From contig JAKALO010000012.1 in NCBI GenBank assembly GCA_021824125.1, positions 1 through 32,691 on the forward strand: 32,691 nt of DNA, written 5' to 3'. Every line of letters starts with the position of its first letter. Positions within the stretch are counted from its first letter, which is position 1. The position numbers and the translations under genes are program-made. A model generated the notes under the pieces. That model ran no database searches. It saw nothing but the letters and a program-made list of their open reading frames with translations, and had not been told where the DNA came from. Shown piece after piece: positions 17,305-31,747 of the stretch. Source of the stretch: Deltaproteobacteria bacterium (GTDB lineage Bacteria; Desulfobacterota; Deferrimicrobia; Deferrimicrobiales; Deferrimicrobiaceae).

Positions 17305-19797
17305 TTATCGTTTCCCGCGGGGAACCAGTTCCGCCGTCATTTTCTTCGGTGCGAACCGGTCGGGCGGCAACGCGACGCCAAGAAGACCGGAGGCCCCGTC
17401 GAGCGGCCGTACGCCCCTGCCCGTTCCATGGATGATTGTAATGAAGAGCGCGCCGTCATTCATCAGAAAATTCGACACGAGGGGTTTCAGGTCGATCTCC
17501 TGCCGGCCGTCCTCCCTCGAAATCGCCACGGGGAAAGAGCGGGAAGCCTGGAATGCTTCCCACGCGCGGGCTACCCGCCCGGGATCCACCTCGCCGGGAA
17601 GCCCGTATGGCGGCAGGGGATCGATGCGGTACGCGCAGACGAGGTCGAAATCGGAAAGGCGTGGAGACCCCGGGGGCACGTGTTTCGCCGAAACGATCCG
17701 GATTCCCCCGGGCAGGAACTCTGACTGCCTCTTTTCGATCTCCGACGCGACCACGGGAAGGTAAAACTCCGCTTCCACGAATTCCGAGAGGCTTTCGGTT
17801 CCGACGGGCAGCGCGGGGGAGAAGGAGAGGCGCGGGGCGGGGTTGAACCCCTGGCTGTAGGCGACGGGAAAGCCCGCGCGCCGCAGGGACCGGCCCCAGA
17901 GGGACTGGATCTCCAGCCCGGAGAGATATCGGGCGGGACCTTCCTTGGAGTACCGGATGCGGACGACGTGCCGTCCGGCCGCCGCGGGGGCGCCGCCGAC
18001 TCCCGGGTCCACTCCCGGGGCCCGCCTTTCACCCATGCGATCCGGGGAATAAGTGACGTTTCCGAGCCCCGGCGGGCAGGCGCCGCACGCGGAGCATGCG
18101 TCGGCGCGGCAGTCGGGGGTGGGCTCCCCGGACCTCGACTTCTCCCGCTCCGAAAGAAGGAATCCGCGGTCGATCCCGGCGTCCACGAAATCCCACGGGA
18201 GCGGGTGCGCCGGGTCCCGTTCCTCGAGGTACCCGCGGGGGTCGATCCCCGCTTCCCGGAACGCCTGGCCCCACGCCTCGGGGCGGAACGACTCGGTCCA
18301 CGCGTCGAAGCGCGCCCCCAGCCGGTAGGCCCGGAGGAGGACGCCGGCGAGCCGCGAGTCCCCGCGCGAGAAGACCCCTTCGAGCTCGCTGACGGCGGCG
18401 GAGTGGTGCTTCACCTCGACGTTCCTGTCCCGGCCGACCTCCGCGCGCACGATCGCCAGCCGCTCCCCTATCTCCTCTTTCCCGATCTGCCGCTCCCACT
18501 GGAACGGGGTGTGCGCCTTGGGGACGAAGGCCGACAGGCTCACGGTGACCGAGTTGCGCCTTCCATGGGTCCGGGCGACGGAGGCCACCTTTCTCGCGAG
18601 GCGCCCGACGGCGGCGACGTCCTCCAGGGTTTCACCCGGGAGCCCGACCATGAAGTAGAGCTTGAGCGTCTGCCACCCGTTGGCGTAGATCCACTCGGCG
18701 GAACGCAGGAGTTCCTCGTCCCGGATGTCCTTGTTGATGGACTTCCGGAGCCGCTCCGAGCCCGCCTCAGGGGCGAGCGTGAATCCCGTCTTTCGGACTT
18801 TCCGGATCTGGCGGACGGTGTTTTCGCTCAGGGCGTCCAGGCGGATCGAAGGCAGGGAGACGGAGACGCGTTCCGGGGAAAGCGTCTCCATCGCCTCCGT
18901 GATCAGGCGGTCGATGCAGCCGTAGTCCGCGGCCGAAAGGGAGAGCAGGCCGACCTCGTCGTACCCGGTACGGGGCGCCACTTCCTGCAGATAGCGCAGA
19001 AGGAGCAGGGGGTCCCGCTCCCGCACCGGGCGGTAGACGTAGCCAGCCTGGCAGAACCGGCATCCCCTCGTGCAGCCGCGGGAAATTTCCATGCTGAGCC
19101 TGTCGTGCACGACGCGCATTGCCGGAAGTATAGGGGCGGGGAGCAGGGGTGAACCCGCAAGGTCCGGCAGGACGCGCCTGGAAACACGGGTGGAGACACC
19201 GGGGACGAACACCCCCTCGACCCGGGAAAGACCCCGCAACAGGTCGCCCCGCGTTCCTTTTCGTTCCTTCCACGACTGGACGCAGGAGAGGATTTCCAGG
19301 ATCGCTTCCTCGCCGTCCCCCACAAGCAGCGCGTCGAAGAACGCTTCGACGGGCGCGGGATTCAGCGTGCACACCCCGCCGCCCAGGATCAGCGGGTCGT
19401 TTTCCCTGCGCTCGTCGCGGAGCAGCGGGATGCCGGAAAGTTCCAGCATCGAGAGTACGTTCGTGTACGTCAGTTCGTAGCAGAGGGAAAACCCGATGAC
19501 GTCGAAATCGCGCACCGGCCGCGCCGATTCGAGGGAACAGAGAGGGATCGCGTTATCGCGCAGGTGCCCCTCCAGGTCCCGCCAGGGCGCGAATGCCCGC
19601 TCGCACAGGATGCCCGGCCGGGAGTTCAGTATCTCGTGGAGGAGGAGGATACCGAGGTGGGACATCCCGATCTCGTAAACGTCCGGAAACGCAAGCAGGA
19701 CGCGGATATCCGCGCTTTCCCAGGGCAGGAGAGGACGTCGTACCTCGCTTCCGCAATAGCGGGACGGTTTCTGGATCGAAGGAGGAATCGTTCTCAT
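17305..19797 (-). CDS. TIGR03960-type B12-binding-like radical SAM protein fused to a TIGR03936/DUF2344 domain
   Basis: SRGCTRGCRFCQAGYVYRPVRER (radical SAM CxxxCxxC); C-terminal IRYSKEGPARYLSGLEIQSLWGRSLRRAGFPVAYSQGFNPAPRLSFSPALPVGTES; adjacent to rng. Confidence 0.93.
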   Translation of the reverse strand: MRTIPPSIQKPSRYCGSEVRRPLLPWESADIRVLLAFPDVYEIGMSHLGILLLHEILNSRPGILCERAFAPWRDLEGHLRDNAIPLCSLESARPVRDFDVIGFSLCYELTYTNVLSMLELSGIPLLRDERRENDPLILGGGVCTLNPAPVEAFFDALLVGDGEEAILEILSCVQSWKERKGTRGDLLRGLSRVEGVFVPGVSTRVSRRVLPDLAGSPLLPAPILPAMRVVHDRLSMEISRGCTRGCRFCQAGYVYRPVRERDPLLLLRYLQEVAPRTGYDEVGLLSLSAADYGCIDRLITEAMETLSPERVSVSLPSIRLDALSENTVRQIRKVRKTGFTLAPEAGSERLRKSINKDIRDEELLRSAEWIYANGWQTLKLYFMVGLPGETLEDVAAVGRLARKVASVARTHGRRNSVTVSLSAFVPKAHTPFQWERQIGKEEIGERLAIVRAEVGRDRNVEVKHHSAAVSELEGVFSRGDSRLAGVLLRAYRLGARFDAWTESFRPEAWGQAFREAGIDPRGYLEERDPAHPLPWDFVDAGIDRGFLLSEREKSRSGEPTPDCRADACSACGACPPGLGNVTYSPDRMGERRAPGVDPGVGGAPAAAGRHVVRIRYSKEGPARYLSGLEIQSLWGRSLRRAGFPVAYSQGFNPAPRLSFSPALPVGTESLSEFVEAEFYLPVVASEIEKRQSEFLPGGIRIVSAKHVPPGSPRLSDFDLVCAYRIDPLPPYGLPGEVDPGRVARAWEAFQASRSFPVAISREDGRQEIDLKPLVSNFLMNDGALFITIIHGTGRGVRPLDGASGLLGVALPPDRFAPKKMTAELVPRGKR

Positions 19798-19848
19798 GAT
19801 TTTCTACATTCCCAATTAATTTTTGAAAAATCAATGGTTTCAAGTTAG

Positions 19849-19862
19849 ATTATCCGGATAAT
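19849..19862. promoter_or_regulatory. perfect 14-bp palindrome in a divergent intergenic region
   Basis: ATTATCCGGATAAT, 25 nt upstream of the ATG at 19887; TTGAAA (19823) and TAGATT (19846) form a possible -35/-10 with a 17-nt spacer. Confidence 0.5.
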
Positions 19863-19886: not shown

Positions 19887-22181
19887 ATGCGTTTGATCTG
19901 GAACCAGGGCGCAGGGTTATCGTTCCGGCCGGAGGAGTTCTTCGGCCGCGAGGAGGAATTGGCCGCCCTCTCTCGCGTCTGTCTCGAGGGAAGGTCCGGC
20001 ATCGGTTCGTCCGTGATGATCTTCGGGCCCCCCAACATCGGGAAGACCTCCATCCTCCTGAAGCTGAAGCACGACCTCCAGCGGCTGCAGGAAGGCAGCC
20101 CGGCCCCCCGTCCCTTCCCGTTCTACTTTTCATTCAGCAAGATCCTTTCGCATCCCCTGGCGCTCTCCCAGCATTTCCTCCAGGAGTACCTGTGGCAGGT
20201 ACTGGCCTTCCTGGGGGAGTCGCCCCTCGGTGCGTTCGACGCCGAGGCGATGTGCGAGAGGCTCGGGATGTTCGGCCTCGACGAGTGCCGGGAATTCCTC
20301 AACGCACACAGGATGTGCGCGGAGCGCGGCGACGGCCTGTCGGCGCTCGTGAACGCACTCTCCCTCCCGTTCGGTTCCGGGAGAGAGGTGTTCTACCCCG
20401 TGTTGCTCTTCGACGACTTCCAGTACACGTCCAAGCTGCAGAACATGCCCGACGGCGCCATCCTCTCGATCCTGCGTTCCCACATAAAGTCGGGCCATTT
20501 CCCGATGATCATCTCGGGTTCGTCTCCGGGGCACGTCACCGCGTCCCTCAAGAGGGAAGGGCTTTACGGGACCTTCCAGCTGATGGAGGTTGGGGGGCTT
20601 TCCCCGGCGGCCTCCGCAAGGATGTGGGCGTCCGTTTTCGAGCGGCGGCAGATCGGGATGCCCCCGCAAATACAGACCCGCGCGGCGGCACGGCTGGGGC
20701 ACGTTCCGATCTACCAGCGGATACTCGCCGATGAGATCTCCTTCCGGAACCTGCAGGTCACCGACGTGATCGGGTTCGAGAACGTTTTCGCGCTCTCCGT
20801 CACGGAGGGGCAGCTCAACCGGTACTGGCGCGAGTTCTTCGAGAACGCGTTTCCCGACAGGCTGCGGCGCGTGCGCGCCATCAAGTTCCTGAAGCGCGTC
20901 GTCTGCGACCAGTTCCCCCTGGACACGTTCGAGGGGGCGTTGTCGCTTCTGGGGACTTCCCCCGCGGAGGGCGGGGAGATCCTGTCCTCGCTGGAGTTCA
21001 AGGGCCTGCTGAAGTCCGACTTCGAGCAGCTGCGGTTCGTGAACGACCCGGTGCTGGCCGATTTCCTTTACTGGGCGTTCGAGCGGGGTGTCGTCGGCAA
21101 GACCTCGTCACAGGTCGCCGCGTCACTCGTGCAGTCAAAGCTTTCGTATGCCGCCCTCGATGCGGTGGAGGGCGGAAGGGAAAAGTGGATCGCCGTCACA
21201 AAGGAGCTGATGCGAAGGTGGGACTGCCGCGAAGTCCCGACGCTCCTGTTCCGGTTCGGCGGCTTCCGGGAGCGGTTCGACGGGAAGGGGCTCCTCGAGG
21301 TCGTGATCGGGATGGAGAAGGAGGCGCAGAAGCTCCGGCTGCCCAAGATCAGCTCCGTGTCCACCGGCTACAAGACCAGGCGGGGCGGCCCGCGGTTCGA
21401 TTTCGACCTGGTCGCGTACGGGTTCCACGAAGCGGAGTTCTCCGAGGAGAACCTCGTGATATGGGCCGTGGACGTGACGACGGAGAAGACGCTCACGGCA
21501 AGGTCGGTGGAGCACTTCGAGAACCGGTGCAGGCTGCTGAGCCTGGAGAAGGGGCTCAGGGACGAGCAGCTCCGGAAGTGGATCCTGTTCGAGGGGGCCG
21601 TCGACCCCGCCGCCGTCGAGCTCGTGGCGCGGTACGACATCTTCCTGACCCATCGCTCCCAGATGCGCCTCTTCCTCAACCTGTTCGGAATGGAAGAGAT
21701 AGATCTCGAGCCAGATGTCCGCAGGCCCGCCGAGGTGCCGCCGGGGACGGAGCCACTGGAGTTCGAGCTGGTCCTGCCGATAAAGGCGGACACGGAGGTC
21801 GTGGCGGCCCGCGTGGCGGAGGAGGTGGCGGCCTACGCCTCCCTCGACAAGGATACGGTGGACCGGGTCAAGATGGCGATCATCGAGGCGTGCATAAACG
21901 CTTTCGAGCACAGCGGAGCGGAGTCCGGCAAGGTCCGGCTGCGGTACATACTCTCCCCGGAGAAGATCGAGCTCTTCGTACAGGACGAGGGCAAGGGGTT
22001 CCGCGGGGGGCGGACCGGCGAGGAGAGCAAGCGCAACAGGGGCTGGGGGCTGAAGCTCATTCGGGAGCTTGTGGACGACGTGGAGATCATGACGGGCGAC
22101 CAGGGGACCACGGTGCGGATGGTGAAATTCCTTGGTTCCGCGCCCGAGAAAGAGGAGGGGGGATCGCAAGGTCCCGGGTGA
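19887..22181 (+). CDS. multidomain P-loop ATPase - nuclease-fold-like region - RsbW-like HATPase protein
   Basis: FFGREEELAAL + GPPNIGKTSILLKL (Walker A) + VLLFDDFQ (Walker B); C-terminal IIEACINAFEHS (N box), VQDEGKGF (G1), RGWGLKLIRELVDDV (G2). Confidence 0.8.
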   Translation: MRLIWNQGAGLSFRPEEFFGREEELAALSRVCLEGRSGIGSSVMIFGPPNIGKTSILLKLKHDLQRLQEGSPAPRPFPFYFSFSKILSHPLALSQHFLQEYLWQVLAFLGESPLGAFDAEAMCERLGMFGLDECREFLNAHRMCAERGDGLSALVNALSLPFGSGREVFYPVLLFDDFQYTSKLQNMPDGAILSILRSHIKSGHFPMIISGSSPGHVTASLKREGLYGTFQLMEVGGLSPAASARMWASVFERRQIGMPPQIQTRAAARLGHVPIYQRILADEISFRNLQVTDVIGFENVFALSVTEGQLNRYWREFFENAFPDRLRRVRAIKFLKRVVCDQFPLDTFEGALSLLGTSPAEGGEILSSLEFKGLLKSDFEQLRFVNDPVLADFLYWAFERGVVGKTSSQVAASLVQSKLSYAALDAVEGGREKWIAVTKELMRRWDCREVPTLLFRFGGFRERFDGKGLLEVVIGMEKEAQKLRLPKISSVSTGYKTRRGGPRFDFDLVAYGFHEAEFSEENLVIWAVDVTTEKTLTARSVEHFENRCRLLSLEKGLRDEQLRKWILFEGAVDPAAVELVARYDIFLTHRSQMRLFLNLFGMEEIDLEPDVRRPAEVPPGTEPLEFELVLPIKADTEVVAARVAEEVAAYASLDKDTVDRVKMAIIEACINAFEHSGAESGKVRLRYILSPEKIELFVQDEGKGFRGGRTGEESKRNRGWGLKLIRELVDDVEIMTGDQGTTVRMVKFLGSAPEKEEGGSQGPG

Positions 22182-22188
22182 ATCGGAG

Positions 22189-22542
22189 ATGAATTACCTG
22201 ACTGTAAGGACCCGCAACGCGGGGGACGCTTTCGTGGTGTACATCGACGGGTACCTGAACAGCCTCATGGGGGAAGAGGTGGAAAGGGTGGTCCAGGAGG
22301 TCCTGGACGGGGGGGTCAGGAAGATCCTCCTTAATTTCGAGGGGACCCGCCTGATCAACAGCATCGGGATCTCGATCATCATCGGCGTCGTGGAGAAAAT
22401 CATGGAGCGGAACGGGGTGCTCGCCTTCTGCTGCCTCTCCCGCATCAACCGGGAACTGTTTCAGATGACCGGCGTGGCGCGCCACGTCCGGGTATTCGAT
22501 CGGGAGGAAGAGGCTCTTGGCCATTTCAGTCAATCCGGGTAA
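22189..22542 (+). CDS. STAS-domain anti-sigma factor antagonist
   Basis: VRTRNAGDAFVVYIDGYLNSLMGEEVERVVQEVLDGGVRKILLNFEGTRLINSIGISIIIGVVE; NSIG aligns with the SpoIIAA DSSG phosphorylation site. Confidence 0.88.
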   Translation: MNYLTVRTRNAGDAFVVYIDGYLNSLMGEEVERVVQEVLDGGVRKILLNFEGTRLINSIGISIIIGVVEKIMERNGVLAFCCLSRINRELFQMTGVARHVRVFDREEEALGHFSQSG

Positions 22543-23812
22543 GGTCGCGCATTCCTGCGACAAACGCCTGCCTGCCGGGCGGCGCGAGGCGTTCAAGCTC
22601 AAGGCGCTTCGGGATTTCACGTTGTGCATGGGGCGGTCCCGCGACTTCGACGAGTCCCTCCACCTGGCGCTCATGGTCATACTGGGCACCTATTCCATCG
22701 CCAAGGGCGCCCTGTTCCTGGAGGAGGACGGCGAATTCCGGGTGCGTGTCTCCCGCGGACTTCCCCCGGGAATCCCTCCCATCGACAAGTCGGCGGATCT
22801 TGTCGCGGCGCTGCGCCGCACGAGACGGCCGGTGAGCCTGGGGCGGACGACGATCAACGGTGCGATCAGGAAAGCGGCCTCCGATGTGGAACGGGCGGTG
22901 CCCACGTTCACGGTGGAGTTCCTGTGCCCCCTCGGGGCCCGGAACGGTTACCTCGGGATTCTCGTTCTCGGCCCCACGTTTTCCGGGGAGCCCATGACGG
23001 TCAGGCAGCGCGAGACGCTGAGCGTGATGACATCCTTCCTGTCCACGCACATATCCAACCAGCGTGTGATCGCCGACATCTCCCGCCTGAACGACGTGCT
23101 CCGTTTCCAAATGGAGGAGAACGAGCGCCTGATCGACGGGATGCGGGAGATATACATCGACACCATCCGCGCCCTCGCGACGGCGATCGAGGCCAAGGAC
23201 CCTTACACCCGCGGGCATTCCGAGCGCGTGGCGAAGATATCGGTGTCGATCGCGAAGGGACTGGACCTGCCGGAGGGCGAGGTGGAGGCGATCCACATCG
23301 CCTCCATTCTCCACGATGTCGGGAAGATCGGGACCGCGAAGAACATCCTGAACAAGCCGTCGGCGCTCACACCCGAGGAGATCGGCGAGGTCCGGAAGCA
23401 TCCGAGGACCAGCTTCGAAATACTGTCCAAGATCAGGTTCCCGTACCCGAACGTCGCGCTTCTTGCCAGGGACCACCACGAACTGCTGGACGGATCCGGC
23501 TATCCCGCCGGCAAGCGTGAGCACCAGATACCGATCGGCTCGCGGATCATCGCCCTTGCCGACGCGTTCGATGCGATGGTCTCGGACCGCCCGTACCGGG
23601 ATGGCTTGTCCCTGGTTGCCACGCTGACGGAGATACGGTCCTGCATCTATCGCCATTACGACCCGAACGTCGCGCGGGTCTTCCTGCGGTACCTGCGGAA
23701 CGAGATCTCCGGCGAATCCCCTGTGCCGGTGATCTTCCCGGAATTGAGGAGGGGCTATTCCCGTGTGGAAGCTCTCGACATCATCGTGAGAACGCTTCGT
23801 GACCTTAACTAG
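22517..23812 (+). CDS. GAF-like sensor + HD-GYP c-di-GMP phosphodiesterase
   Basis: TTG start with GGAGG RBS inside the STAS gene; HSERVAKIS, SILHDVGKIG, RDHHELLDGSGYP, IALADAFDAMVSDRPYR. Confidence 0.93.
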   Translation: MAISVNPGKVAHSCDKRLPAGRREAFKLKALRDFTLCMGRSRDFDESLHLALMVILGTYSIAKGALFLEEDGEFRVRVSRGLPPGIPPIDKSADLVAALRRTRRPVSLGRTTINGAIRKAASDVERAVPTFTVEFLCPLGARNGYLGILVLGPTFSGEPMTVRQRETLSVMTSFLSTHISNQRVIADISRLNDVLRFQMEENERLIDGMREIYIDTIRALATAIEAKDPYTRGHSERVAKISVSIAKGLDLPEGEVEAIHIASILHDVGKIGTAKNILNKPSALTPEEIGEVRKHPRTSFEILSKIRFPYPNVALLARDHHELLDGSGYPAGKREHQIPIGSRIIALADAFDAMVSDRPYRDGLSLVATLTEIRSCIYRHYDPNVARVFLRYLRNEISGESPVPVIFPELRRGYSRVEALDIIVRTLRDLN

Positions 23813-23816
23813 CCCT

Positions 23817-24626
23817 CTACGGTCTCCGCGCCGTTCCCGGCGGTAATCCCGCAAGCAGCACCCGCAGGGCGGCCAGCCCCCGGTGGAAGTGCTCTATCCG
23901 GTGGGGTTCCAGGGTGAGTATGGGAAAGGCTCCCGCGTCCAGCGCCGCGTGAAGTATCCCGCCGAAGTTTACGGAGCCTTCGCCGACCGGAAGGTGGTCG
24001 TCGCGCGTTCCCCGGTTGTCGTGGACGTGCAATTCCCGGAGTTCCGGGCCGAATGCCTCAACCCACTTGTGGACGGGAATACCGGAAAACAGGGCTGCGT
24101 GACCCGGGTCCAGGCAGAAGCCCAATCGCTTCGACCCGATCGCCTCCGCCAGCCGGAGCATGTGATCCGGGACTTCGTCGAACACGTTTTCCAGGAACAG
24201 GTCGACGCCGGTCTTTTCCGCCGATTCCATGGCCTCCCCGAGCGTCCGCCGGGCGGGCTCCAGCCACTTCAGGGGGTCGAAGTCGTAGATCCAGCCCGAG
24301 TACCCGCCGTGGACCACGATCCCCCGGGGGTGGAACAAGGGGGCGAGTTCTATCGCCTGCCGGAGACGTCGGGAAGCTACCCTCCGGGCCTCCTCGTCGC
24401 GGGCGCCGGGGCAGATATCCTCGAATGGGGCGTGAAAAGTGACGCTTTTAACGCCCGCCGCGCGCACCGTTTCAGCAAGGCTTTCCGCGCGTCCGGGAGA
24501 GAGGGAGTCGAGGGAGGCCCCCGAAAGGTAGATTTCGGGTCCGACGCCCGTACCGGCGAGCAGGCGCACCGTTTCGGGGTTCCCGAGCATCTGGCAGGGA
24601 ACCGTGGCGTGTATCGTCCAGTCCAT
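23817..24626 (-). CDS. sugar phosphate isomerase/epimerase-like TIM barrel protein (AP endonuclease 2 superfamily)
   Basis: TFHAPFEDICPG, VVHGGYSGW, LFLENVFDE, LGFCLDPGHAALF, LHVHDNRGTRDDHLPVGEGSVNFGGIL; start at MDWTIHAT. Confidence 0.85.
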   Translation of the reverse strand: MDWTIHATVPCQMLGNPETVRLLAGTGVGPEIYLSGASLDSLSPGRAESLAETVRAAGVKSVTFHAPFEDICPGARDEEARRVASRRLRQAIELAPLFHPRGIVVHGGYSGWIYDFDPLKWLEPARRTLGEAMESAEKTGVDLFLENVFDEVPDHMLRLAEAIGSKRLGFCLDPGHAALFSGIPVHKWVEAFGPELRELHVHDNRGTRDDHLPVGEGSVNFGGILHAALDAGAFPILTLEPHRIEHFHRGLAALRVLLAGLPPGTARRP

Positions 24627-24728
24627 TTTCCCCAAACCTTTTCCTCCAGGGCGGGATTTCGGTCCGGAGAAGCGTACCCCATCGCGTGGCGCGGGGCAAG
24701 CGAGTCGCCCGGACAACATGGATAATGC

Positions 24729-24757
24729 TTGACAATTAACTGTATACTGCATACATT
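24729..24757 (+). promoter_or_regulatory. promoter with imperfect dyad operator for the GntR gene
   Basis: TTGACA (24729-24734), 17-nt spacer, TACATT (24752-24757); imperfect dyad TGTATACTGCATACA (24741-24755). Confidence 0.5.
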
Positions 24758-24774: not shown

Positions 24775-25461
24775 ATGGCGTGGGGGTTGATATTGCTGCA
24801 GAAACTGAAAATCCAGATCGACAGCCACATGACGCTGCGGGAAAAAATAGTGGAAACGGTGCGCAGCGCCATCGTCAACGGGCAGATCCCGGCCGGCACT
24901 CGGGTGGCGGAGCCGGAACTGGCCGACCGCTTCGGCATCAGCCGGACCCCGATAAGGGAGGCGTTCCGCCAGCTCGAGTCCGAGGGGTTCATCACGGTCA
25001 TCCCCCGCAAGGGAGCGGTCGTCGCTTCGCTCTCCGCGAAGGACATCTCCGACTTCTACGATCTCAAGACCGTGCTCGAGGGGTACGCGGCGCGGTGCGC
25101 GGCCAGGACTTTGACTGAAAAGGAAATCGTCAAGATGGAGACGGTGAACCGCCAGATGGAGGCGGCCGCCGCCAAGAAGGACCTTCGCAAGGTGCTGACC
25201 CTTCACAACGAGTTCCACGACATCTTCCTCAAGTCGTGCGGAAACGAGAAGCTTCACTCCATCGTCCAGAACCTCGTGAGGCAGTTCCAGCGGTTCCGGC
25301 TGATCGTCGCGATCCGGGGAAAGATGGACGGTTCCATCAAGCAGCACGAGGAGATCATCGACGCGTTCCGAAAGCAGGATGCCGCCCTCGCCGAGAACCT
25401 TGTGATGAAGAACGCCCAGTACGGGAAGAAAATCCTTCTCCGGGAACTGGCGAAGGGCTGA
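24775..25461 (+). CDS. GntR family (FadR/FCD subfamily) transcriptional regulator
   Basis: wHTH: VRSAIVNGQIPAGTRVAEPELADRFGISRTPIREAFRQLESEGFI; FCD: HNEFHDIFLKSCGNEKLHSIV...QHEEIIDAFRKQDAALAENLV. Exact start uncertain. Confidence 0.93.
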   Translation: MAWGLILLQKLKIQIDSHMTLREKIVETVRSAIVNGQIPAGTRVAEPELADRFGISRTPIREAFRQLESEGFITVIPRKGAVVASLSAKDISDFYDLKTVLEGYAARCAARTLTEKEIVKMETVNRQMEAAAAKKDLRKVLTLHNEFHDIFLKSCGNEKLHSIVQNLVRQFQRFRLIVAIRGKMDGSIKQHEEIIDAFRKQDAALAENLVMKNAQYGKKILLRELAKG

Positions 25462-25482: not shown

Positions 25483-26892
25483 ATGCCCGATCCGGCAGGA
25501 CTCCGAAGCCTTCCCTCCGTAGCATCGATGCTTGCGGCCGACGAGGTGCGGCAGGCGCTGTCCGTTCACCCCCGGCCGGTAGTCGTGGACGCCATCCGCA
25601 GGATACTGGACCACTTCCGAAGCGAGGCCGCCGCGCCGCCCGTCCGGAGCCGCGAGGAATGGGCATCCCTGCTCCTGTCCCGTCTGCCGGGCGAGATAGC
25701 GACCGGGGAGGAAGAATCCCTCGGGAGGGTCATCAACGCGACCGGCGTAGTTATCCACACCAACCTCGGCAGGGCGCCGCTGCCGGAAGAGGCGATCCGC
25801 GCCGTCTCCCTGGTCGCCCGGGGGTATTCCAACCTGGAGTTCGACCTCGCGTCGGGGGGTCGCTCTTCCCGCCTCGTTCACGTGGAAAAGCTGATCCTTT
25901 CGCTGACGGGCGCCGAATCGGCGCATGTCGTGAACAACAACGCGGCCGCGGTGCTCCTTTGCCTCGCCGGGCTGGCGAGGGGCCGGGATGTACTCGTAAG
26001 CCGTGGGGAACTCGTCGAAATCGGCGGCTCGTTCCGGATTCCGGACATAATGACGGAAAGCGGCGCCGCCCTGGTAGAGGTTGGAACGACGAACCGGACG
26101 CGGCTTACGGACTACGAAAGGGCGGTGACCGGCCGGACGGCGCTGCTCCTGAAGGTCCACAGGTCCAATTTCCGCATCACAGGGTTCACCGAGGAGGTTT
26201 CGGCGGGGGACCTCTCGACGCTGGGAGACCGGTTGGGGATCCCGGTCCTGGAAGACCTCGGCTCGGGAGCCTTGTTCGACTTCTCCGTCGCGGGAATCGC
26301 GGGGACTCCGACCGTCCGTCAGGCGCTCAGGCAAGGCCCCGGCATCGTTACGGTGAGCGGTGACAAGCTGCTCGGGGGCCCCCAGGCGGGGATCATCGTG
26401 GGGCGCAGGGAGCTGGTGGCGCCCCTGAAGAAACACCCCCTCTCGCGGGCCTTGAGGATAGACAAGATGGGGCTTGCGGCGTTGGCGGCGACGTTGAGGC
26501 TCTACGCCGACGAGCGCAGGGCCGTTCGGCGGATACCGGTTCTCGCCATGATGACGGACGGGGAGGGTTCCGTGCTCGCGCGTGCCCGGAAACTTGTCCG
26601 GAGGGTGAGGAGGGGGGGCGGAGCCGGACTTCTCCTTTCCGTCGAGAAAGGCCTTTCTTCCCCTGGCGGAGGTGCGATGCCCGACGTCCACCTCCCGACC
26701 GTCTGCGTCGCCCTATCACACCCGGCTGTCAGAGTCGAGGACATCGAGGAGAGGCTCCGGGGCGGGAAACCCCCGGTGATCGCCCGGATCGTAAGGGGAA
26801 AACTGCTCCTGGACATGCGGACGGTCCGCGACGACGAGCTCCCCGAACTGGCGGCTGCGCTCCTGGCCGCCGTCGAAAAGAAAGCATGTTGA
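25483..26892 (+). CDS. selA: L-seryl-tRNA(Sec) selenium transferase
   Basis: RVINATGVVIHTNLGRAPLPEEA, YSNLEFDLASGGRSSR, VNNNAAAVLLCL, VSRGELVEIGGSFRIPDIM, TVSGDKLLGGPQAGIIVG. Confidence 0.95.
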   Translation: MPDPAGLRSLPSVASMLAADEVRQALSVHPRPVVVDAIRRILDHFRSEAAAPPVRSREEWASLLLSRLPGEIATGEEESLGRVINATGVVIHTNLGRAPLPEEAIRAVSLVARGYSNLEFDLASGGRSSRLVHVEKLILSLTGAESAHVVNNNAAAVLLCLAGLARGRDVLVSRGELVEIGGSFRIPDIMTESGAALVEVGTTNRTRLTDYERAVTGRTALLLKVHRSNFRITGFTEEVSAGDLSTLGDRLGIPVLEDLGSGALFDFSVAGIAGTPTVRQALRQGPGIVTVSGDKLLGGPQAGIIVGRRELVAPLKKHPLSRALRIDKMGLAALAATLRLYADERRAVRRIPVLAMMTDGEGSVLARARKLVRRVRRGGGAGLLLSVEKGLSSPGGGAMPDVHLPTVCVALSHPAVRVEDIEERLRGGKPPVIARIVRGKLLLDMRTVRDDELPELAAALLAAVEKKAC

Positions 26893-27688: not shown

Positions 27689-29386
27689 ATGTCCGTGATG
27701 GCAACGAAAATCGGGGAAATGCTCCTCAAGGGGAACCTGATAACTCCCGAGCAGTTGAGGAGCGCCCTGGAGACCCAGAAAAAAACGAAGGAGCGGGTCG
27801 GCTCGCTCCTGGTCAAGTCCGGCTCCATCAAGGAGCCGGAGCTGCTCGCCTTCCTCGGGCGCCAGTTCAACATCCCCGTCATCGACCTCGCGAAGTACGA
27901 GATCAACGGCGAGGTCGTGCGCCTGCTCCCCGAAGAGATGGTCCAGAAGCACCTGGCGCTCCCGATCAACCGCATAGGCGCAAAGCTGATCGTTGCCGTG
28001 GCGGACCCCTCCAACATGGCGATCATCGACGCCATCGGGTTCAAGACCGGCTACGCGGTCGAGCTGGTCCTCGCTTCCGAGCGGGAAATCACCACCGCGA
28101 TCAACAAGTACTTCGACCAGACGATGGAATTCAAGGACATCATCTCGGAACTGGACGAAGACCTGGAAGTCGTGCGGGAAGAGGACCTCGAAACACTGGA
28201 CCAGGATACGCGTGTCGACGACGCGCCGGTCGTCAAGCTGGCCAACTTCATCCTCACCGACGCCATCAAGAGGCGCGCCTCCGACATCCACGTCGAGCCG
28301 TACGAGAAGGAATTCCGCGTGCGCTACCGGGTGGACGGGGTTCTCTACGAGGTGATGCGCCCCCCGCTGAAGCTGCGCAATGCCCTCTCCTCGCGCCTCA
28401 AGATCATGTCGAGCCTGGACATCGCGGAGCGGAGGCTCCCGCAGGACGGCAGGATCAAGCTGAAGATCGGCAAGGGCAGGGAGATGGACTTCCGCGTATC
28501 GGTCCTGCCGACCATCCACGGCGAGAAGATCGTCATGCGCCTGCTGGACAAGGCGAGCCTTCAGCTCGACATGACCAAGCTCGGCTTCGAGGTGGAGGCG
28601 CTGAAAGACTTCCAGGAGTCGATCCACCGACCTTACGGGATGATCCTGGTCACCGGCCCCACCGGCTCGGGCAAGACGACGACCCTGTACTCGGCGCTCT
28701 CGGACCTTAACAAGACCTCGGACAACATATGCACGTGCGAGGACCCGGTGGAGTACAACTTCGCCGGCATAAACCAGGTGCAGACCAAGGAGGAAATCGG
28801 GCTCACGTTCGCGGGGGCGCTCCGCTCGTTCCTCCGCCAGGACCCCGACATCATCATGGTCGGTGAGATCCGGGACTATGAAACCGCGGAGATCGCCGTC
28901 AAGGCCGCGCTCACGGGGCACCTCGTGCTCTCCACCCTCCACACGAACGACGCGCCGAGCACGATCACGCGGCTTCTCAACATGGGAATCGAGCCCTTCC
29001 TCGTCTCCTCGTCGCTCAACCTCATTGTTGCGCAGCGGCTGGCCAGGCGGATCTGCGCGAACTGCAGGGACGAGGTGAAGATCCCGCCGAAGGCGCTGAC
29101 CGACGCCGGGATGAAGCCCGAGCGCCTGAAGCACGCCAAGCCGTGCAAGGGCAAGGGCTGCGACGACTGCAACGGGACCGGGTTCCGCGGGCGCGTCGCC
29201 CTCTACGAGGTGTTGCCGGTCAAGGAGGAGATCAAGGACCTCGTCCTGCGGGGGGGGTCGGCGATCGAGGTGAAGCGGGAAGCGATCCGCATCGGGATGA
29301 AGACGCTCCGGCAGTCAGGGTTGTCGAAAATAGAAGAAGGGGTCACCACGCTCGAGGAAGTGCTCCGGGTGACCGCCCCCGATTAA
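27689..29386 (+). CDS. pilB: type IV pilus assembly ATPase PilB
   Basis: GspE N-domain, VTGPTGSGKTTTLYSAL, Asp box RASDIHVEP, FLRQDPDIIMVGEIRD, C-terminal zinc motif CANC...CKGKGCDDC. Confidence 0.96.
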   Translation: MSVMATKIGEMLLKGNLITPEQLRSALETQKKTKERVGSLLVKSGSIKEPELLAFLGRQFNIPVIDLAKYEINGEVVRLLPEEMVQKHLALPINRIGAKLIVAVADPSNMAIIDAIGFKTGYAVELVLASEREITTAINKYFDQTMEFKDIISELDEDLEVVREEDLETLDQDTRVDDAPVVKLANFILTDAIKRRASDIHVEPYEKEFRVRYRVDGVLYEVMRPPLKLRNALSSRLKIMSSLDIAERRLPQDGRIKLKIGKGREMDFRVSVLPTIHGEKIVMRLLDKASLQLDMTKLGFEVEALKDFQESIHRPYGMILVTGPTGSGKTTTLYSALSDLNKTSDNICTCEDPVEYNFAGINQVQTKEEIGLTFAGALRSFLRQDPDIIMVGEIRDYETAEIAVKAALTGHLVLSTLHTNDAPSTITRLLNMGIEPFLVSSSLNLIVAQRLARRICANCRDEVKIPPKALTDAGMKPERLKHAKPCKGKGCDDCNGTGFRGRVALYEVLPVKEEIKDLVLRGGSAIEVKREAIRIGMKTLRQSGLSKIEEGVTTLEEVLRVTAPD

Positions 29387-29413
29387 ACGGGAAGGGCGAA
29401 GGAGAGGATTCCG

Positions 29414-30511
29414 ATGATCGCGATGCACGAGATGCTCAGCATCATGTACGAGAAGGGCGCTTCCGACCTGCACATAACCACGGGGATCCCCCCGACCATC
29501 CGGGTGGACGGGCGCCTGCTCCCGATGCCCGCGGAACCACTGACCCCCCCGGACACCAAGCGCCTCTGCTACAGCATCCTGACCGAGGCGCAGAAGCAGC
29601 GCTTCGAAGAGGAACTGGAACTCGACCTCTCCTTCGGTGTGAAGGGACTGAGCCGGTTCCGCGCGAACATCTACATGCAGCGGGGGGCGGTGGCGGGGGC
29701 CTTCCGGACGATTCCGTTCCGCGTGCGGTCGTTCGACGAGCTGGGCCTGCCGGCCAACCTGAAGGACCTGTGCAAGAAACCGAGGGGGCTCGTGCTGGTA
29801 ACGGGGCCGACCGGCTCCGGAAAATCGACGACCCTCGCGGCCATGATCGACAAGATCAACGCCGAGAGGCAGGAGCACATCGTCACGATCGAGGACCCTA
29901 TCGAATACCTGCATCCCCACAAGAAGTGCGTCATCAACCAGCGGGAGGTGAACGCGGACACGCAGAGCTTCAAGAAGGCGTTGAAGCACATCCTGCGCCA
30001 GGACCCGGACGTAGTCCTCGTCGGCGAGATGCGCGACCTAGAGACGATCGAGGCAGCCTTGACCGTGGCGGAGACCGGGCACCTGGTGTTCGCCACGCTG
30101 CACACCAACTCCTGCGTTCAGACCATAAACCGCATCCTGGACGTATTTCCCCCCTACCAGCAGCCCCAGGTCAGGGCGCAGCTTTCGTTCGTGCTCGAGG
30201 GGGTCGTGTCGCAGATCCTGCTGCCCAAGGCGTCCGGGACGGGAAGGGTGCTTTGCCTGGAGGTGATGATCCCCAACCCGGCGATCCGGAACCTCATAAG
30301 GGAGGAGAAGGTCCACCAGATCTACTCGCAGATGCAGGTGGGGCAGGCCAAGTTCGGGATGCAGACGATGAACCAGTCGCTGCTTGCCGCCTTCCTCCGC
30401 AGGGAGATCACGCTCGACGACGCGGTCGGAAGGAGCTCCGACCCTGATGAGTTCCGGAACCTGATGACGCAGGCGCACAACGCCCCGCAGGCCCCCGGGC
30501 GAAGGGGATAG
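29414..30511 (+). CDS. pilT: type IV pilus retraction ATPase PilT
   Basis: GASDLHITTGIPPTIRVDGRL, VTGPTGSGKSTTLAAMIDKIN, LRQDPDVVLVGEMRDLETIEAALTVAETGHLVFATLHTNS. Confidence 0.96.
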   Translation: MIAMHEMLSIMYEKGASDLHITTGIPPTIRVDGRLLPMPAEPLTPPDTKRLCYSILTEAQKQRFEEELELDLSFGVKGLSRFRANIYMQRGAVAGAFRTIPFRVRSFDELGLPANLKDLCKKPRGLVLVTGPTGSGKSTTLAAMIDKINAERQEHIVTIEDPIEYLHPHKKCVINQREVNADTQSFKKALKHILRQDPDVVLVGEMRDLETIEAALTVAETGHLVFATLHTNSCVQTINRILDVFPPYQQPQVRAQLSFVLEGVVSQILLPKASGTGRVLCLEVMIPNPAIRNLIREEKVHQIYSQMQVGQAKFGMQTMNQSLLAAFLRREITLDDAVGRSSDPDEFRNLMTQAHNAPQAPGRRG

Positions 30512-30535
30512 CGGGAAGGACCTTCGGAGGAGACG

Positions 30536-31747
30536 ATGCCGAAATTCGAATGGGAAGGCAAGACAAGGGCTGGGGGGACCATGACGGGGGAGCTCGACGC
30601 CCCCAACGAGGCGTTCGTCCTCGCACAGCTCCGCCGTCAGCAGATCGTCCCGGTGAAGGTCAGGCAGAAGTCCAAGGACCTCGGGTTCAAGATGCCCGGA
30701 TTCGGGAAGAAGGTCACGCAGAAGGAGCTGGCGATCTTCACGCGGCAGTTCGCAACCATGATCGACGCCGGGCTTCCCCTGGTCCAGTGCCTGGACATCC
30801 TGGGACTGCAGCAGACGAACCAGGCGTTCAAGTCGGTCGTCATGAAGGTGAAGGAAGACGTCGAGAGCGGCTCCACCTTCGCAGATGCGCTCCTGAAGCA
30901 CCCGAAGGTTTTCGACGAACTCTTCGTCAACCTGGTGGCCGCGGGTGAAGTGGGCGGGATACTCGACACGATCCTTTCGCGCCTGGCGGCATACATCGAA
31001 AAGGCGATGAAGCTCGCCAAGAAGATAAAGAGCGCGATGGTCTACCCCTCCACCATCCTCGCGGTCGCGGTCGTCGTCACGGTGGTGCTGCTGCTCTACG
31101 TCATACCTATCTTCGGGAAGATGTTCGCGGACTTCAACCAGGAGCTGCCCGCGCCCACGCAGTTCGTCCTGGCCCTGAGCGATTTCACGCGCAAGTATTT
31201 CCTCCTGGTGATCGTCGTGTTTGTCCTGATCGGAATGGCCATACGCTGGTATTACGGCAAGGAAGGCGGACGGAGGAACATCGACCGTATTCTCCTCAAG
31301 ACACCCATAATAGGGAGCCTCCTGCAGAGGATCGCCGTGGCCCGCTTCGCGCGCACCCTCGGCACGATGGTGAGCAGCGGCGTGCCGATCCTGGAAGGCA
31401 TGGACATCGTCGCCAAGTCCGCGGGGAACAAGGTGATCGAGGAAGCCATTACCCGGGCGCGGCGGAGCATCAGCGAGGGAAAGACGATCGCGGACCCGCT
31501 GGCCGAGAGCAAGGTGTTTCCCGTGATGGTCACCCAGATGGTCGCGGTCGGCGAGGCCACCGGTGCGCTGGACACGATGCTCAACAAGATCGCCGACTTC
31601 TACGACGACGAGGTCGACTCGGCCGTGGACGCCCTGACCGCGCTGCTCGAACCGATCCTGATGATCTTCCTCGGCGTGGTGATCGGGGGGCTGGTCATCG
31701 CCATGTACCTGCCGATCTTCAAGCTGGCCGGCGTCGTCGGGGGATAA
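30536..31747 (+). CDS. pilC: type IV pilus inner membrane platform protein PilC
   Basis: ELAIFTRQFATMIDAGLPLVQCLDIL, VAAGEVGGILDTILSRLAAYIEKAMKL, ALLEPILMIFLGVVIGGLVIAMYLPIFKLAGVV. Confidence 0.96.
   Translation: MPKFEWEGKTRAGGTMTGELDAPNEAFVLAQLRRQQIVPVKVRQKSKDLGFKMPGFGKKVTQKELAIFTRQFATMIDAGLPLVQCLDILGLQQTNQAFKSVVMKVKEDVESGSTFADALLKHPKVFDELFVNLVAAGEVGGILDTILSRLAAYIEKAMKLAKKIKSAMVYPSTILAVAVVVTVVLLLYVIPIFGKMFADFNQELPAPTQFVLALSDFTRKYFLLVIVVFVLIGMAIRWYYGKEGGRRNIDRILLKTPIIGSLLQRIAVARFARTLGTMVSSGVPILEGMDIVAKSAGNKVIEEAITRARRSISEGKTIADPLAESKVFPVMVTQMVAVGEATGALDTMLNKIADFYDDEVDSAVDALTALLEPILMIFLGVVIGGLVIAMYLPIFKLAGVVGG

Follow-up and report, generated by a model that had tools for sequence, protein, structure and literature searches.

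We analyzed a three-gene module at positions 19887 to 23812 of a 32,691-nt stretch of DNA (the window; contig JAKALO010000012.1, assembly GCA_021824125.1) from a deltaproteobacterium of the class Deferrimicrobia, phylum Desulfobacterota. The module encodes an ATPase fused to an RsbW/SpoIIAB-type HATPase, a STAS protein and an HD-GYP protein, and the comparison of related genomes strongly supports that the HATPase and the STAS protein work as a pair. For the full chain, a partner-switching module in which kinase and sensor are joined in one protein and the signal is read out as breakdown of cyclic di-GMP (c-di-GMP), we put the chances at about even. Judged from its sequence, the module works like a partner switch and departs from the classical type; we set it apart from classical partner switches because the phosphatase that defines them was not found and because the RsbW and SpoIIAB equivalog scores were not reached.

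The pairing is best seen in the genomes that have lost it. Among the genomes of the class, a STAS protein was found in 21 of 24, and 18 of these possess exactly one. Two genomes (G011 and G016; loci L018 and L019) encode no STAS protein at all, and their HATPase has lost the G2 box, and in G016 the G1 box too, with the P-loop still intact; a close relative of both, G001, has kept a STAS protein together with an intact HATPase. Similarly, in two genomes of Sumerlaeota (G064 and G065), the module has no STAS gene, the N, G1 and G2 boxes of the HATPase are destroyed and the GYP motif of the HD-GYP protein is lost too, with other STAS proteins encoded elsewhere in these genomes. The tree requires two independent changes for STAS loss and HATPase decay. 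A further genome, G002, in which no STAS protein was matched, is uninformative because a contig end truncates its fusion gene. Since STAS loss coincides with decay of the HATPase boxes in two independent lineages, the pairing put forward in the original prediction, which was made from the letters of the window, is strongly supported. As expected for the RsbW/SpoIIAB family, the cognate STAS protein is encoded in the same operon, adjacent to the fusion gene, and is usually the sole STAS protein of the class genomes. The next-best HATPase_c_2 match in the window's genome, C213, was rejected as a second RsbW-type protein, being an ordinary histidine kinase with the motif SHELRTPL; because it is the other match above the cut-off, the module is the only RsbW-type/STAS pair found in this genome.

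At L018 and L019, the fusion gene persists without a STAS gene and without an HD-GYP gene. Because it does so with an intact P-loop despite the decayed HATPase, the ATPase part may serve a separate function.

The fusion gene (19887..22181, + strand, ATG start) encodes a protein of 764 aa. The original prediction had placed Walker motifs near its N-terminus and an HATPase at its C-terminus, and both are borne out: the sequence contains Walker A (GPPNIGKTSIL) as well as Walker B (VLLFDDF), and Pfam reports AAA_16 at residues 17-180 (E 3e-8, N-terminal AAA_16/ATPase_2) and HATPase_c_2 at residues 640-747 (E 4e-23). Pfam, an AlphaFold model (predicted local distance difference test, pLDDT, 79) and Foldseek delimit a P-loop NTPase with a helical/winged-helix region at residues about 1-420. 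In the model, residues ~1-400 match the archaeal ATPases PAB2304 (2qen) and SSO1545 (2fna), and the N-terminal part is thus modelled as an archaeal/STAND-type P-loop ATPase. The RsbW/SpoIIAB-type HATPase occupies residues about 621-750 (Pfam, NCBIfam, AlphaFold model and Foldseek). This C-terminal part matched RsbW/SpoIIAB in solved complexes with target-normalised template modelling (TM) scores of 0.76-0.94 (about 0.9 against RsbW), and its N, G1 and G2 boxes are present in the alignment, in line with the family at the level of the fold. The NCBIfam equivalog cut-offs were not reached, with 51 of 145 bits for RsbW and 35 of 135 bits for SpoIIAB.

The ends of the fusion were therefore correctly assigned, but a middle domain at residues about 430-604 (21174..21698, + strand) had been overlooked. 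Modelled separately, this region reached a pLDDT of 91, and Foldseek returned MspJI, AspBHI, Rpb5, Card1 and AF1548 with modest TM scores of 0.37-0.47; a sequence profile of the domain gave no match in the PDB. A conserved catalytic Lys is missing after the Asp/Glu position, so an active nuclease was rejected, and we tentatively read the domain as a degenerate PD-(D/E)XK-like, restriction-endonuclease-like fold that would be non-catalytic. A STAND-like ATPase together with a nuclease-like fold suggested a role in anti-phage defence; this was rejected, as PADLOC gave no match for the fusion or the STAS protein and, for the HD-GYP protein, nothing beyond weak HD/Cas3 matches.

The second gene (22189..22542, + strand, ATG start, 117 aa) encodes a STAS protein, as first read, with a Pfam STAS match at E 1.1e-11 and SpoIIAA in the PDB at E 5e-9. 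Like members of the SpoIIAA/RsbV family, it combines the STAS fold with a phosphorylatable residue, the probable phosphoacceptor being Ser58 within LINSIGIS. All the STAS homologues carry N-[S/T] at this site, where Ser and Thr exchange only with each other. The third gene (22517..23812, + strand, TTG start, 431 aa) had been described as a GAF plus canonical HD-GYP protein. The HD-GYP part is complete (Pfam HD_5, E 1e-34), the motif alignment showing GHSERV, HDVGK, HHELLDGSGYP and ADAFDAM, including the HD and GYP catalytic motifs of the phosphodiesterases. The GAF domain stands less firmly: Pfam calls none in the window protein, and the homologues lend it weak support. The nearest solved relatives of the HD-GYP domain are 5z7c, a 3'3'-cyclic GMP-AMP (3'3'-cGAMP) phosphodiesterase, and then 4mcw. 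As 5z7c, the best PDB match, acts on 3'3'-cGAMP, the sequence does not fix the substrate; c-di-GMP appears the likelier of the two, because related cassettes contain a GGDEF partner and the class genomes hold many GGDEF-type matches.

The fusion was found in 24 of the 26 class genomes sampled, and the two without it are 88% and 75% complete. Outside the class, profile searches recovered related proteins that combine both halves from about 8 of 40 Sumerlaeota genomes and from six genomes of the window's phylum (families f11, f53, f59 and f92). The original prediction had proposed searching relatives for the same three-gene synteny, and the order ATPase-HATPase, STAS, GAF-HD-GYP was indeed found in nine genomes outside the class, at L036, L059 and L060 in Sumerlaeota and at L076-L081 in the window's phylum (at L078 the contig end cuts the HD-GYP gene). 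The genes are kept in the same order at 40-90% protein identity in the class and 26-37% in another phylum, and the module is therefore no chance arrangement. Upstream of the fusion gene, six of the nine loci (L036 and L076-L080) encode a PocR-GAF-GGDEF protein whose GGEEF motif is intact, assigned by Pfam scans except at L079, where the assignment rests on sequence similarity and the motif. At L081, a TPR protein takes the place of the cyclase and the fusion has no middle domain. The window module itself contains no diguanylate cyclase. Elsewhere in the class genomes (13-25 matches per genome), the matches listed comprised GAF/GGDEF parts only and no PocR-GGDEF cyclase.

In the mechanism that we propose, the N-terminal STAND/archaeal-type ATPase would shift its conformation with nucleotide and signal, the nuclease-like middle domain being the probable ligand- or partner-binding part. 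This shift would open or close the C-terminal HATPase, which would bind the product of the adjacent STAS gene, as the genome comparison indicates, and, judging from the conserved residues, probably phosphorylates it at Ser58. Free STAS protein would then bind the HD-GYP enzyme at its GAF/linker part, setting the activity of the enzyme and thereby c-di-GMP breakdown. In related lineages, the PocR-GAF-GGDEF cyclase of the same cassette would supply the opposite reaction, so that the cassette could set a local c-di-GMP balance. Reset could come from an unrecognised phosphatase, from new STAS synthesis, or be unnecessary if no phosphorylation takes place. An extended version, in which a single STAS protein, held or released by the ATPase-fused RsbW domain, acts on both the GGDEF cyclase and the HD-GYP protein of the same operon, as a four-part c-di-GMP toggle reset by the ATPase with no PP2C, seems to us distinctly improbable; the window's own lineage has only the phosphodiesterase arm of such a toggle.

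Several observations weigh against this chain, at its output, its ATPase and its reset. The downstream region is readable in 22 class genomes; about 11 of them have no HD-GYP gene adjoining the fusion gene, and 9 of these keep a STAS protein and an intact HATPase. The STAS protein must therefore have another role or target in these genomes, and the HD-GYP protein cannot be the sole target in every genome of the class. The fusion/STAS pair could thus be a signalling unit that acts on the product of some other locus (a sigma factor, a different cyclic-di-nucleotide enzyme or the pilus machinery), with the HD-GYP gene merely co-transcribed, a possibility that we take seriously and nevertheless doubt. 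It would fit the absence of an adjacent HD-GYP gene from about half of the class, as well as the HATPase-STAS pairs that adjoin GAF-histidine kinases in other genomes. At L082, L083 and L084, a stand-alone RsbW-type HATPase, a STAS protein and a GAF-containing protein lie in a row, the last being a histidine kinase by Pfam at L082 and L083; by their gene content, these sets represent a related switch with another output. However, distant lineages keep an HD-GYP gene after the STAS gene in the same order, which would scarcely be expected if the two were functionally unrelated; the cassette also takes in a GGDEF cyclase, and G064 and G065 combine the loss of STAS with decay of the HD-GYP motif. 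A small sample of GAF domains likewise speaks for the HD-GYP protein as the target: against a profile built from the GAF domains of the cassette HD-GYP proteins, those encoded beside STAS at L082-L084 scored 53-104 bits, higher than the 26-41 bits of the cassette cyclases. The link to c-di-GMP turnover that had been predicted is thus upheld by a GAF-HD-GYP gene conserved beside the pair in distant lineages, and by the cyclase in cassettes elsewhere, and is qualified by the class genomes in which no HD-GYP gene is adjacent; control of the phosphodiesterase by the STAS protein would be consistent with the former. As for the ATPase, two Sumerlaeota copies (L059 and L060) have lost the P-loop lysine, so ATP hydrolysis may be dispensable there.

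The reset of the switch raises the other objection. A SpoIIE-type phosphatase (PF07228) was found in 0 of 20 class genomes, the window's own included, and in none of four genomes whose cassette includes the cyclase (G182, G234, G257 and G339); SpoIIE proteins are present in Sumerlaeota, G112 and G320. Absence of the SpoIIE/RsbU-type PP2C phosphatase that acts on STAS in classical partner switches would be odd for a phosphorylation switch of that type. The statement that the module encodes no phosphatase accordingly holds and, for the SpoIIE family, extends to whole genomes. PP2C_2 proteins were found in 2 of 18 class genomes, including the window's own, where the sole candidate of that family is a partial frame at a contig end (G000:C21:3-530; L065). 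No dedicated phosphatase is thus conserved in the system, but some phosphatase could still serve, families beyond SpoIIE and PP2C_2 being unsearched. A switch without phosphorylation would have no need of one: the HATPase would hold or release the STAS protein according to an ATP/ADP state set by the fused ATPase. In known systems, partner binding by SpoIIAB depends on the bound nucleotide. This explanation is favoured by the phosphatase counts and we consider it unlikely, since both the N-box Glu and the Ser/Thr of the STAS protein are conserved and the window's genome holds its partial PP2C_2 candidate. In addition, the Asn that replaces the Asp of SpoIIAA is still compatible with phosphorylation, because SiaC, which also has an Asn (Asn67) before its Thr, is phosphorylated at Thr68 (PMC8457831).

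The arrangement of the locus agrees with the original description of three co-directional genes. All three open reading frames were found on the + strand, with a 7-nt gap between the fusion and STAS genes and a 26-nt overlap between the STAS and HD-GYP genes. The block is flanked by a divergent gene (17305-19797, - strand) and a convergent gene (23817-24752, - strand). When the upstream sequences of 17 relatives were compared by eye, a predicted sigma-70-like promoter (TTGAAA-N17-TAGATT; 19823..19851, + strand) was recognisable in most relatives of the family, where the -10 element mostly reads TACATT. A perfect 12-bp palindrome, TTATCCGGATAA, lies just upstream of the fusion gene at 19850-19861; it was rejected as an operator, as it is not conserved in relatives. 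The whole neighbourhood is conserved across the class, which points to vertical inheritance. It includes type IV pilus genes encoding PilB (with an MshEN domain), PilT and PilC at 27689-31747, ~4 kb downstream of the module. MshEN is a c-di-GMP-binding type of domain, and PilB is a possible reader of the c-di-GMP signal. The window also encodes SelA (L-seryl-tRNA selenium transferase; 25483-26892), preceded by a GntR/FCD regulator (24775-25461), a hint of selenoprotein synthesis.

Control of diguanylate cyclases by STAS proteins, a precedent for the proposed mechanism, has been described for SiaC-SiaD and HsbA-HsbD (PMC8457831, PMC6482189) and, as cited in PMC8457831, for BgrV-BgrR of Sinorhizobium. 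In the SiaABCD system of P. aeruginosa (PMC8457831), the kinase SiaB phosphorylates the STAS-like SiaC, which directly controls an adjacently encoded c-di-GMP enzyme. Unlike the window module, with its HD-GYP protein and no cyclase in the operon, SiaABCD has a diguanylate cyclase as output, a phosphatase of its own (SiaA) and a kinase without a fused P-loop ATPase; the cassettes at L036 and L076-L080 come closer in having their cyclase upstream. HsbR-HsbA-HsbD, also of P. aeruginosa (PMC6482189), ties an anti-sigma-type kinase to c-di-GMP metabolism through a STAS protein, but has a cyclase output, joins a PP2C phosphatase to the kinase in HsbR, and is not described with an ATPase fusion. The same tie is made by BgrSTUWV-BgrR of Sinorhizobium (cited in PMC8457831), likewise with a cyclase output and no ATPase fusion described. 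Streptomyces RmdB, a phosphodiesterase, binds a sigma factor directly, by a different mechanism (PMC13232838). With RsbW/RsbV and SpoIIAB/SpoIIAA of Bacillus, the module shares the HATPase and STAS folds (PDB 6m36/6m37, 1th8, 1til), the N-box Glu/Asn and the phosphosite Ser. It differs in that the HATPase forms the C-terminus of a 764-aa ATPase, that Asn replaces Asp before the Ser, that the module contains no sigma factor gene, as had been noted, and that a SpoIIE/RsbU phosphatase was not found in the genome. PAB2304 and SSO1545 share the fold of the N-terminal ~400 residues (Pfam ATPase_2/AAA_16), but these solved proteins have no RsbW-type domain such as the fusion carries at its C-terminus. 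A literature search of incomplete coverage (most subscription papers and bioRxiv lay outside it) found no STAS/RsbW switch with an HD-GYP output and no ATPase-fused RsbW kinase.

STAS switches are known for c-di-GMP synthesis, and this cassette suggests that breakdown may be governed in the same manner, with both arms encoded in one operon in some lineages. A kinase that would carry its own ATPase sensor is a design that we did not find described, and, as no SpoIIE-type phosphatase is conserved, the reset of the switch becomes a testable question. The cassette is compact and turns up in many uncultured bacteria.

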